The notes under the pieces were generated by a model. It saw only the letters and a program-made list of their open reading frames with translations, was not told the origin of the DNA and made no database searches. A stretch of 64,000 nt of DNA from an uncultured Ectothiorhodospiraceae bacterium. Its GTDB lineage: Bacteria; Pseudomonadota; Gammaproteobacteria; XJ16; Halofilaceae. The stretch is taken from positions 62,001-126,000 of the forward strand of contig CAJXKK010000003.1 in the NCBI GenBank assembly GCA_913055615.1, written 5' to 3'. A program made the position numbers and the translations under genes. Of the stretch, positions 6,331-54,534 are shown piece after piece. Position 1 is the first letter of the stretch. Every line of letters begins with the position of its first letter.

Positions 6331-7212
6331 TCAGGCGACGTGAGTCTTCTTCGCCTGTTCGGAACGCGCGCGCTCGTCGGGCAGGATGCCGATCATGCGG
6401 CACACCGCCCGCGTCAGCGGCGCGCGGTTCATGGTGTAGAAGTGGAACTGATCGACGCCCTCCGCCATCAGGCGCCGGCACTGGTCCGAAGCGACGGAGG
6501 CGGCGACCATATCCTGCTCGCGCGGATCGTGTTCGAGACTCGCGAACAGCCGCTCGAGCCAGCCCGGCACGGTCGCACCGCAGCTGCGACTGAACCGCGC
6601 CACCTTGGGGAAATCCGCGACCGGGAGGATGCCCGGAACGATCGGGACATCGACGCCGGCCGCGACCGCGCGGTCGCGGAACCGTAGGATCGTGTCGTCG
6701 TCAAAACAGAACTGCGTAATCACGCGGCTGGCGCCGGCATCGACCTTGCGCTTGAGGTATTCGATATCGGCGGCGGATGACGGTGCGTCGGGATGGACCT
6801 CCGGGTAACCGGCGACGCTGATATCGAAATCCGCGACCTCCCGCAGCCCGGGTATCAGTTCGGCCGCGCAGCCGTACCCATCGCTTCGCAGCGCATGGCC
6901 TGAATCGTCGTCGGGCAGATCGCCTCTCAGGGCGACCAGACGACGGACGCCGTTCTGCCAGTAACGCCGCGCGATCCGCTGGATCTCGGCACTACAAGCG
7001 CCGACACAGGTCAGATGCGCGGCCGGCGTCAATTCCGTTTCCCGGAGGATACGACGGACTGTGGAATGGGTCCGCTCGCGGGTCGATCCGCCCGCGCCGT
7101 AGGTCACGGAAACGAATTCCGGGCGCATCGACTCCAGCGCGATAATCGCGTCCCAGAGCCGCGCCTCCGCAACCTCCGTGCGCGGTGGGAAAAATTCGAA
7201 TGAGACTTTCAT
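6331..7212 (-). CDS. metF: Methylenetetrahydrofolate reductase
   Basis: The 293-residue protein has the standard MetF start (MKVSFEFFPPRT) and length. It reduces 5,10-methylenetetrahydrofolate to 5-methyltetrahydrofolate with FAD, the methyl donor for MetH directly downstream. FEFFPPRT, the SVTYGAGGSTRERT segment and FDDDTILRFRDR near residue 180 are typical of the family. The frame stays open upstream to 7371 only because it runs into the decamer repeats there; the ATG at 7212 is the one that matches the family. The Shine-Dalgarno is weak. The gap to ahcY is filled by nested inverted repeats, so it is unclear whether transcription from ahcY continues into metF. Confidence 0.97.
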   Translation of the reverse strand: MKVSFEFFPPRTEVAEARLWDAIIALESMRPEFVSVTYGAGGSTRERTHSTVRRILRETELTPAAHLTCVGACSAEIQRIARRYWQNGVRRLVALRGDLPDDDSGHALRSDGYGCAAELIPGLREVADFDISVAGYPEVHPDAPSSAADIEYLKRKVDAGASRVITQFCFDDDTILRFRDRAVAAGVDVPIVPGILPVADFPKVARFSRSCGATVPGWLERLFASLEHDPREQDMVAASVASDQCRRLMAEGVDQFHFYTMNRAPLTRAVCRMIGILPDERARSEQAKKTHVA

Positions 7213-7242: not shown

Positions 7243-7560
7243 GAACCACGAATGAACACGAATGCTGCCGCGCGAGGTGCATGGCTCGCGGGAGCTATGC
7301 TGGAAGGTGGCCGCAACGCAACGGTTGGGAAAGAACCACAGATGAACACAGATGGACACAGATAAAGTCAAAGGCGGTGAATGGGTAACCGTGATCGCGT
7401 GATCTCACCCCATCACGGATTTTGACCTTATCTGTGTTCATCTGTGTCTATCTGTGGTTCAAACGGGATCCCGTTCACCGACTACGCTTCAGCGAAGCTC
7501 CCGCGAGCCATGCACCTCGCGCGGCAGCCATTCGTGTCCATTCGTGTTCATTCGTGGTTC
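7243..7560. repeat. Outer GAACCACGAAT-type inverted repeat of a nested pair
   Basis: The left arm (7243-7296) begins GAACCACGAATGAACACGAA and continues into a unique block ending GGGAGCT. The right arm (7496-7560) is its reverse complement over the whole length, including the unique block, but carries one extra 11-base unit (GGACACGAATG class). About 54 paired bases with an 11-base insertion therefore enclose roughly 200 bases, which themselves contain a second element of different flavour (7333-7460). It fills the 394-base gap between metF and ahcY. No open frame with coding character lies inside. Confidence 0.85.
7333..7460. repeat. Inner GAACCACAGAT-type inverted repeat nested in the outer element
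   Basis: The left arm (7333-7372) consists of three units: GAACCACAGAT, GAACACAGAT and GGACACAGAT, then AAAGTCAAAG. The right arm (7420-7460) is its near-complement, with the middle units changed to AGACACAGAT and GAACACAGAT. A spacer of 47 bases separates the arms. The unit length is 10-11 bases. The inner end of the left arm, AGTCAAAGGCGG followed by TGAATGGG, recurs in the second repeat family at 63747. Confidence 0.85.
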
Positions 7561-7561
7561 C

Positions 7562-7592
7562 ATAAAGAGGCGGGACCCGCAGGCCCCGCCTC
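7562..7592 (-). terminator. Rho-independent terminator of ahcY
   Basis: Read on the minus strand, GAGGCGGG (7592-7585) and CCCGCCTC (7574-7567) form an eight-base GC-rich stem with a ten-base loop, followed by TTTAT. It starts 14 bases after the ahcY stop and would end the metK/ahcY transcript before the repeat-filled gap. Confidence 0.75.
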
Positions 7593-7606: not shown

Positions 7607-9025
<1,419 letters not shown>

Positions 9026-9047
9026 CGTGAGTGTGTCTCCGTATTGC

Positions 9048-9130
9048 GACGAGCGCCGTTGGTACGTGGGCCGGTACCCGAGCCTGGCGGTCCGCGCGGG
9101 GCGGAGGCCGTTGCAGCGCTCCTCGGGTCC
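9048..9130 (-). promoter_or_regulatory. SAH riboswitch in the ahcY leader
   Basis: On the minus strand the leader carries ACCCGAGGAGCGCTGCAACG (9127-9108), then a variable hairpin, then CCAGGCTCGGGT (9087-9076), then GGCGCTCG (9057-9050). ACCCGAG pairs with CTCGGGT to form P1, and GAGCGC pairs with GCGCTC to give the pseudoknot. These conserved blocks and their spacing match the S-adenosylhomocysteine riboswitch class known upstream of ahcY and metH in proteobacteria. The Shine-Dalgarno of ahcY follows within about 30 bases. By knowledge of the class, SAH binding turns expression on. Confidence 0.93.
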
Positions 9131-23647: not shown

Positions 23648-23959
23648 GAACCACAGATGGACACAGATGAACACGGATCAGGGTGGTCGCCGCCAAAGCG
23701 CCAGGGAGTTGCGCTGACACCTGCTTCGAGTGGTGAGGTGCCGTAGATGAACCACAAAATCGATACAAGATGAACACAAAATAGGGCTTATGGCCCATTC
23801 CGTGGTGGGCGCAATCTCTGCGCCATTTTGTGTCTATCCTGTGTTCATTTTGTGGTTCAACAGTCCGAGGCTGCGGTGATGCGCCAGCGGGACGGCGGAC
23901 CCCACCAACGCAAACTCGCACCGACCCAATCTGTGTTCATCTGTGTCCATCAGTGGTTC
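23648..23959. repeat. Outer GAACCACAGAT-type inverted repeat of a nested pair
   Basis: The left arm (23648-23678) reads as units GAACCACAGAT, GGACACAGAT, GAACACGGAT. The right arm (23928-23959) is its approximate complement, with CAGTGGTTC at the edge where one base differs from the usual CTGTGGTTC. About 250 bases lie between, including a second element built from CACAAAAT units. The right arm overlaps the last codons and the stop of hemE. The 308-base gap between the upstream gene and hemE holds nothing else I can see. Confidence 0.82.
23749..23858. repeat. Inner GAACCACAAAAT-type inverted repeat
   Basis: The left arm (23749-23782) reads GAACCACAAAAT, CGATACAAGAT, GAACACAAAAT. The right arm (23824-23858) is its approximate complement. 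The spacer holds a smaller hairpin, GGCGCA-atctc-TGCGCC (near 23808-23824). This third flavour keeps the GAACCAC edge and the 10-11 base period of the other elements but has a different core word. Confidence 0.8.
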
Positions 23960-39699: not shown

Positions 39700-39896
39700 G
39701 AACCACAGATGGACACAGATGAACACAGATAATGGCCTTGTAGGCCTGTTCTGGCCTCCGGGTAGTGAGTCTCGGCAGCGCAAGACGCGACCGGGTTGTT
39801 ATTCCGGGATCGAATCCGTGCGCTGGCCGATCCGCTGAAAGGCGCTTCAGCGCCCCAGGCCCACCATCTGCGTTTTTCTGTGTCCATCTGTGGTTC
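39700..39896. repeat. GAACCACAGAT-type inverted repeat between ftsY and ftsE
   Basis: The left arm (39700-39731) reads GAACCACAGAT, GGACACAGAT, GAACACAGAT, then AATGG. The right arm (39866-39896) is its complement with two degenerate units. The 134 bases between show no second element, unlike the nested cases. It occupies nearly the whole 231-base gap between the two cell-division genes, which are otherwise in operon order. Confidence 0.83.
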
Positions 39897-53695: not shown

Positions 53696-54193
53696 GTGGA
53701 CGTAATCGCCGTATACCCCGGCACGTTCGACCCGGTCACGCACGGCCACGCCGATGTGGCGGATCGCGCAAGCCGCATGTTCCATCGCGTGATCATCTCG
53801 GTGGCCGCGAATCCGTCCAAACAGCCGTTCTTCTCGCTCGAAGAGCGGGTGGCGTTTGCCGAGACCGTGTTCGCGGACAATTCGAATATCGAGGTCCGCT
53901 CGTTCGACTCCCTGCTGGTCGAGTACGCGCGTGAACAGGGCGCCGGCGCGATCCTGCGCGGCCTGCGCGCGGTGTCCGATTTCGAGTTCGAGGTCCAGCT
54001 CTCGGGCATGAACCGCCGCCTGGCGCCGGAGATCGAGACCGTGTTCATCTCCGCCGCCCAGGAATACGGCTTCGTCTCCTCCAGCCTCGTGCGCGAAATC
54101 GCCTGCCTCGGCGGCGACGTCACCGAATTCGTCTCCCCTGCGGTCAAGGAGGCTCTTGATGCGCGGTTCAGGGCGAGTAAGAACCACGAATAA
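53696..54193 (+). CDS. coaD: Phosphopantetheine adenylyltransferase
   Basis: The 165-residue enzyme makes dephospho-CoA. VYPGTFDPVTHGHADV with the T/HxGH motif, GLRAVSDFEFE and the C-terminal EYGFVSSSLVREIACLGGDV are typical. It starts at GTG 53696. The last residues KNHE and the TAA at 54191-54193 are encoded by the first bases of the CACGAAT repeat, beyond the conserved end of the family, so the repeat edge defines the stop codon here as in hemE. Confidence 0.97.
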   Translation: MDVIAVYPGTFDPVTHGHADVADRASRMFHRVIISVAANPSKQPFFSLEERVAFAETVFADNSNIEVRSFDSLLVEYAREQGAGAILRGLRAVSDFEFEVQLSGMNRRLAPEIETVFISAAQEYGFVSSSLVREIACLGGDVTEFVSPAVKEALDARFRASKNHE

Positions 54194-54534
54194 AAGAGAA
54201 CCACGAATGAACACGAATGGACACGAATGGTTCCCTTGGCCAGGAAAGCGCGTCGGAGCTTCGCTGGAACCGGTCGGGGCAGGTCGGTAAAGGGCAAGAA
54301 CCACAGATGGACACAGATAAAAACAAAAAGGACCAAAGGGCGTCGCGCAGCTGACGTATGCGCCGCGTCCGGATGATTGGCTGAAGAGTCGGTTTTTCTA
54401 TCTGTGTTCATCTGTGTCTATGTGTGGTTCAAATAGCAACGCATCGACGGCAACGTAAGACTCTCCGCGAAGCTCCAGACAATTCTCCACGCCCCAGGGA
54501 AATATTCGTGTCCATTCGTGTCCATTCGTGTTCA
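54181..54534. repeat. Outer CACGAAT-type repeat enclosing an inner CACAGAT-type element
   Basis: The left outer arm (54181-54230) holds GAACCACGAAT, a second GAACCACGAAT after AAAAGA, then GAACACGAAT and GGACACGAAT. The right outer arm (54504-54534) is complementary to the last three units but has lost the GTGGTTC edge. Inside, GAACCACAGAT plus GGACACAGAT (54298-54318) pair with the complement at 54398-54430. The single gap of 438 bases between coaD and ggt holds only these two nested elements. Confidence 0.82.

Follow-up and report, generated by a model that had tools for sequence, protein, structure and literature searches.

Mirror-image word arrays that follow GxxExxY nuclease type suggest an undescribed kind of mobile DNA

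The nested palindrome between ahcY and metF

How does one palindrome come to lie inside another, built on a different repeated word, in the gap between two genes? The question is raised by positions 7243-7560 of the window (the whole 64,000-nt stretch of DNA analysed here), where the gene order is metK-ahcY-element-metF-metH and both ahcY and metF are read from the minus strand (Table 1). A first-pass annotation of this DNA had described two inverted repeats here, and sequence reading and repeat search recover both at the positions it gave. Base pairing between the outer arms, 7243-7296 and 7496-7560, extends over 54 positions, interrupted by a single 11-nt bulge on the right; as had been claimed, the arms are unequal by exactly one 11-base unit, the right array holding three words and the left two. 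The suggested gain or loss of units is borne out to the extent that the left outer array of a sister species (G002) has three words. The inner arms, GAACCACAGATGAACACAGATGGACACAGAT and its near-exact mirror image, begin with the same edge, GAACCAC, as the outer shell and keep a period of 10-11 bases, with the word AGAT replacing CGAAT. The outer-shell GC block measures 33 bases, and its arm-pair score of 36 is one of the highest among the 64 pairs scored. Folded as RNA, the 318 nt form a single hairpin of -215.9 kcal/mol, as compared with -105.6 +/- 5.6 kcal/mol for 100 dinucleotide shuffles (z -19.6). Wherever it was checked, the annotation's description proves correct, and its reading of genuine inverted units, one shell within another, is supported.

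Table 1. Features of the two-shell palindrome and of its gene neighbourhood, in window positions
Feature	Position	Strand	Basis or remark
Whole two-shell palindromic element	7243..7560	.	Between ahcY and metF; same-architecture orthologue in G002
Outer left array, CGAAT x2, GAACCACGAATGAACACGAATG	7243..7264	+	Repeat search
Outer-shell GC block, left copy, identical to right copy	7264..7296	+	Repeat search
GGAGCTATGCTG, left copy of conserved shell motif GGAGCNNNGCTG	7291..7302	+	Motif count over CGAAT arms
Inner left array, AGAT x3	7333..7363	+	Repeat search
Palindrome centre, imperfectly self-complementary, without GxxExxY gene	7364..7429	.	Repeat search and fold
Inner right array, AGAT x3	7430..7460	-	Repeat search
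GGAGCTTCGCTG (CAGCGAAGCTCC on +), right copy of shell motif	7490..7501	-	Motif count over CGAAT arms
Outer-shell GC block, right copy	7496..7528	-	Repeat search and fold
Outer right array, CGAAT x3, one 11-base unit more than left	7529..7560	-	Sequence and fold
metF, 5,10-methylenetetrahydrofolate reductase, downstream neighbour	6331..7212	-	TIGR00676
ahcY, adenosylhomocysteinase, upstream neighbour	7607..8920	-	TIGR00936
SAH riboswitch upstream of ahcY	9044..9130	-	RF01057, 53.7 bits

Because the riboswitch lies upstream of ahcY and the element further downstream, the hairpin would be part of the SAH-riboswitch transcript. The riboswitch is the only Rfam match at gathering score in the whole window, none falling over 7243-7560. 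A very stable 318-nt hairpin between two cistrons of a SAH-riboswitch operon speaks for palindromes retained for a host role, be it bidirectional termination, mRNA processing between cistrons or nucleoid binding. Against such a role, ahcY retains a G+C-rich hairpin of its own at 7567-7592, which the sister species has too; the comparison of species described below bears on it further.

The window holds three further copies, at 23648-23959 (AGAT outer arms), 39700-39896 (AGAT arms) and around 54181-54308 (an incomplete CGAAT/AGAT form), each at a site that is occupied in the sister species.

A genome-wide family, its nesting rules and its turnover

The palindrome is not a unique event. Its edge pattern, GAACCACNRATRNACACNRAT, has 143 exact matches in the 3.0 Mb source genome (G000), as opposed to none for the reversed control, and these group into some 60 loci, most of them with inverted arms and with nesting as a systematic feature. 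The loci, which were fetched piecemeal, include in G000 solo AGAT pairs, CGAAT outside AGAT, AGAT outside CGAAT, mixed forms and fragments at contig ends; the sister species has 144 matches. Each shell is a half-palindrome of ~90-100 bp that starts with GAACCAC, followed by two or three words at the 10-11 base period, and whole elements measure ~130-540 bp. The distance between successive edges is tight, ~90 bp with two words and ~100 bp with three, and a further spacing class of ~165 bp has an additional 67-base hairpin pair inside the array. Of 157 CGAAT arms, 123 have the shell motif GGAGCNNNGCTG, as against 26 of 4473 control windows; its usual offset in the arms is 47-48 or 57-58 bases, counted from the edge.

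The ~67-base double hairpin, of the type GATTTGCC..GGCAAATC, splits a word within CGAAT arrays; we see it at L015 (about 2540-2606) and in the right arms of L055 and L263, and it resembles a small mobile palindrome in its own right.

The nesting orders seen, all at fixed spacing, are G>A, A>G, G>T, A>T and A>G>T. In G002 the inner shells at L260, L271, L284 and L273 are made of a third word, AAAAAT, the last of these loci being a triple nest, AGAT>CGAAT>AAAAAT. Nesting of a word within itself is nearly absent: among 56 and 66 edge pairs it occurs 1 and 2 times, where 28 and 30 were expected (3/122 versus ~58). The count enters the two arms of one element separately, and dispersal of an old composite as a whole would lower the number of independent events in it. 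At L034, L039 and L040 AGAT lies outside CGAAT or the order is crossed, and L039 and L040 have the same order in both species.

These regularities bear on the explanation that two ordinary MITE families have become nested by chance. Terminal inverted repeats are present, as in MITEs, and the copies are short, non-coding and many per genome; a fixed edge-to-edge spacing and a near-absence of same-word nesting are hard to reconcile with chance. Among 76 outer elements, moreover, target-site duplication is not seen, 4-base matches numbering 1 where 0.43 would be expected and matches of 5-9 bases numbering 0. At inner edges 2-base matches are in excess (23 versus 6.5), probably owing to AAAAAT-type arms, which are extended palindromically by AT. 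As no duplication of target bases is found, we do not claim ordinary MITE status for these elements, and chance nesting of two such families seems to us very improbable, the more so in light of the gene in the long copies, described below, which encodes a nuclease of a family that is not known to act as a transposase.

Have the elements moved recently? In G002, whose metF is 93% identical, the two-shell element recurs in this gap, so that the clean empty site sought in a close relative is not found there. All 44 sites that could be matched by both flanks between G000 and G002 are occupied in G002; most G002 loci were fetched for carrying an element, and on the contigs fetched for other reasons 10 of 10 are occupied. 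The elements are old at the positions that these two species share and, with every comparable site occupied, without sign of recent movement. A base-by-base alignment of the gap in relatives, with nothing inserted, had been set as the observation that would argue against mobility: for this one gap it is seen in part, while at genus level the same pair of genes has an element between them in one species and none in another.

What the shared sites contain, on the other hand, turns over. Fourteen sites have AGAT outer arms in G000 and CGAAT in G002, with no site showing the reverse, and at several loci (L016, L033, L035, L052) the interiors are inverted between the two species. The insides of elements diverge much faster than the flanks, with words and shells swapped at the same site. 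A third species of the genus (G001) has no match to the edge pattern GAACCACNRATRNACACNRAT; at the one site compared it lacks the element, the gap being ~71 bp as against 364, and it carries a GxxExxY element with CACGAAA arms in a gap where that element is missing from the other two species. The position of the sites, common to two species, agrees with a host role for the palindromes. Interiors that flip and diverge far faster than their surroundings, words and shells that are exchanged in place, and a third species that manages without the edge-pattern family all count against it, and we regard retention for such a role as improbable.

We found no base-exact empty site; in the presence/absence pairs within the genus the intergenic bases differ as well, too much in both G001 cases for the exact ends to be fixed. 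Two candidates were rejected. For the pair L066/L263 the better reading is a deletion in G000, one that retains GAACCACGA, and at L052/L324, considered as an uninserted outer shell, G002 retains an 11-base inner-edge stub and an inverted interior, making loss more likely. Phage records gave no match to one GxxExxY query and plasmids only a few, none of them close, and so neither source supplied an occupied/empty pair.

The GxxExxY gene and the word that goes with it

A 469-bp AGAT-armed copy in G000 holds an open reading frame for a GxxExxY protein. At the orthologous site in G002 the arms are CGAAT and the GxxExxY frame is 61% identical. The G000 frame (L048:2612-2974) scores 120.6 bits against TIGR04256 (cut-off 35) and 114.6 bits against PF13366 (cut-off 22). 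In other genomes, too, arms lying 430-500 bp apart enclose such a gene (L101, L115, L118, L201). The partner element with the same ends, where a MITE would have its autonomous partner, encodes a nuclease and no known transposase. No GxxExxY gene with the word CGAAT was found in G000, and none with the third word, AAAAAT, in G000 or G002.

The association was then read in reverse, from GxxExxY genes outward, in 16 and then 28 further genomes (61 genes, about 40 genomes), picked for holding the AGAT motif, a bias in spite of which most of the genes have other words. These include CGCAAAG, CGCCAAG, CACAGAG, CACGAAA, CGCAGATT and more. By a strict automatic test, 33 of the 61 genes have periodic arrays on both sides, in comparison with 1 of 113 windows of the same loci and 1 of 948 windows in G002; most of the remaining genes have degenerate or variant arrays, as judged by eye. 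GxxExxY genes are flanked by inverted word arrays. Some genomes, for example G067 and G066, have many decayed GxxExxY fragments with internal stops (L386-L415).

Across 54 sequences E28, D67, K79 and Q91 are invariant, an intact PD-(D/E)XK set, and Y95 is near-invariant (QxxxY), a residue pattern that fits the Cas4/RecB type of PD-(D/E)XK nuclease. The structure model is confident (pLDDT 96.8) and has as its best structural match the Cas4 protein SSO0001 (Z 9.7); a profile search of PDB sequences gave no relative. PD-(D/E)XK nucleases on their own are not known to transpose DNA.

The word goes with the GxxExxY protein clade and not with the host, across many phyla. In a tree of 34 GxxExxY proteins, with words assigned by eye, the clades track the word across unrelated hosts. 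With automatic word assignment, 33 of 33 genes share the last letter of their word with the closest protein from a different genus (mean 12.6 and maximum 26 under 20,000 shuffles), and the full 7-base word agrees with that of the nearest protein in another genome in 13 of 33 (shuffled mean 1.7). The last letter was chosen after the pairs had been seen, so that the coarser and full-word figures are the fairer, and both lie above every shuffle. A word-free Mantel test gives r 0.40 (null sd 0.044). The shuffles ignore relatedness among the sequences, and all of these figures should be read as strong rather than as exact probabilities. Within each genome, the commonest word among the fetched loci is that of the genome's resident GxxExxY element of this family: AGAT/GGAT and CGAAT number 102 and 53 in G000, as opposed to 42 and 105 in G002.

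We infer that recognition, cutting and movement are the work of the GxxExxY nuclease. The protein would bind the word array with one word per helical turn, touching it at three points along one helical face, and would nick or cut the DNA there; the cutting could open new intergenic sites, as well as the centres of elements with another word, to elements that have the word in question. Copies that lack the frame, such as 7243-7560, would be served in trans by the nuclease of the matching word. At 7243-7560 itself, the CGAAT shell would be the older element, at whose centre the AGAT shell settled, and later exchange between inverted arms may alter the unit number and flip the interior. We consider it more probable than not that 7243-7560, two-shelled and nested, derives from GxxExxY elements as a non-autonomous form, with arms that are binding or cutting sites of the nuclease. 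Against this reading stand the lack of target-site duplications and of a base-exact empty site, the full occupancy of comparable sites in the sister species, the want of a CGAAT-type GxxExxY gene in G000 and of an AAAAAT-type one in either genome, and the nuclease family itself, which by itself is not known to transpose.

The covariation of word and protein requires binding alone, not mobility, and could arise if the arrays were operators, bound by the GxxExxY protein or a co-evolving protein in control of its own gene, while some unrelated enzyme, or else ordinary recombination, dispersed the palindromes. A protein array fits well with words spaced one to a helical turn, and neither target-site duplication nor recent movement is seen. 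Operators would hardly be expected, though, to stand inverted on both sides of the gene, past its stop codon as well, or to recur in the same design in dozens of copies without a frame; the presence of the gene in multiple copies, with many decayed fragments per genome, is as in selfish elements. We think the operator explanation unlikely, if deserving of some weight, and prefer the nuclease-driven elements set out above.

Relation to known repeats and meaning

Since movement is something that we infer, we file the palindromes with the dispersed palindromic, MITE-like repeats. Like MITEs, including BrickBuilt of Porphyromonas gingivalis, in which tandem units lie inside a MITE (PMC4596501), they are short, intergenic, multi-copy and inverted at their ends. 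They differ from these in that the word arrays themselves form the arms, no target-site duplication accompanies them, two or three shells stand at fixed spacing, and the partner gene is a PD-(D/E)XK nuclease. With the GTAG- and CGTC-tagged REP/BIME repeats (PMC3733652) they share being intergenic palindromes of many copies; REPs are 20-40 bp long with a tagged end, as compared with ~130-540 bp and periodic arms here.

The GxxExxY protein has the fold and the D-(D/E)xK-QxxxY pattern of Cas4 and RecB-type nucleases, and differs from them in being ~120 residues long, with one domain and word-array flanks of its own. Its catalogue entries (TIGR04256; PF13366, PDDEXK_3) name the protein only, whereas here the gene is carried by the long copies of a repeat. 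Two papers name it, one of them in passing, as a gene reported beside a CRISPR-linked reverse transcriptase. A search of 5.39 million open-access papers with the repeat sequences gave nothing relevant and no description of the arrays.

A comparable arrangement surrounds genes of another fold. Four-helix-bundle genes (PF05635), known as the frames of 23S rRNA intervening sequences, are also flanked by inverted arrays of tandem words, mostly of ~7 bp (L356-L385, L223), in contrast to the period of 10-11 bases here, and word-protein covariation at these genes is weak (r 0.19). In Scytonema, the arrays at such a gene (L381, 1434-1454 and 1817-1855) have the word TAACTGA, the heptamer described in PMC4679880.

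Word arrays of this sort occur in a great many prokaryote genomes, and we have found no explanation for them in the literature. The hosts of one array motif, among the matches listed, include Planctomycetes, Acidobacteria, Cyanobacteria, Verrucomicrobia, Proteobacteria, Methanosarcina and others. Mirror-image ends made of words, with the word following the type of nuclease, suggest an undescribed kind of mobile DNA. More tentatively, and with real doubt on our part, we propose a class common to bacteria and archaea, with one Cas4-like nuclease that would read a repeated word placed in its own inverted ends; this word would serve as a specificity code, evolving along with the protein and barring same-word nesting, and the palindromes without a frame would be non-autonomous copies.

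The covariation ties the arrays to a protein family hitherto named by a sequence motif alone, and opens a direct test of binding and cleavage. How TAACTGA heptamer arrays have spread among distant lineages has been left open, with the suggestion that a repeat-binding protein is possibly mobile (PMC4679880), and the link between word and nuclease seen here may bear on what spreads them.
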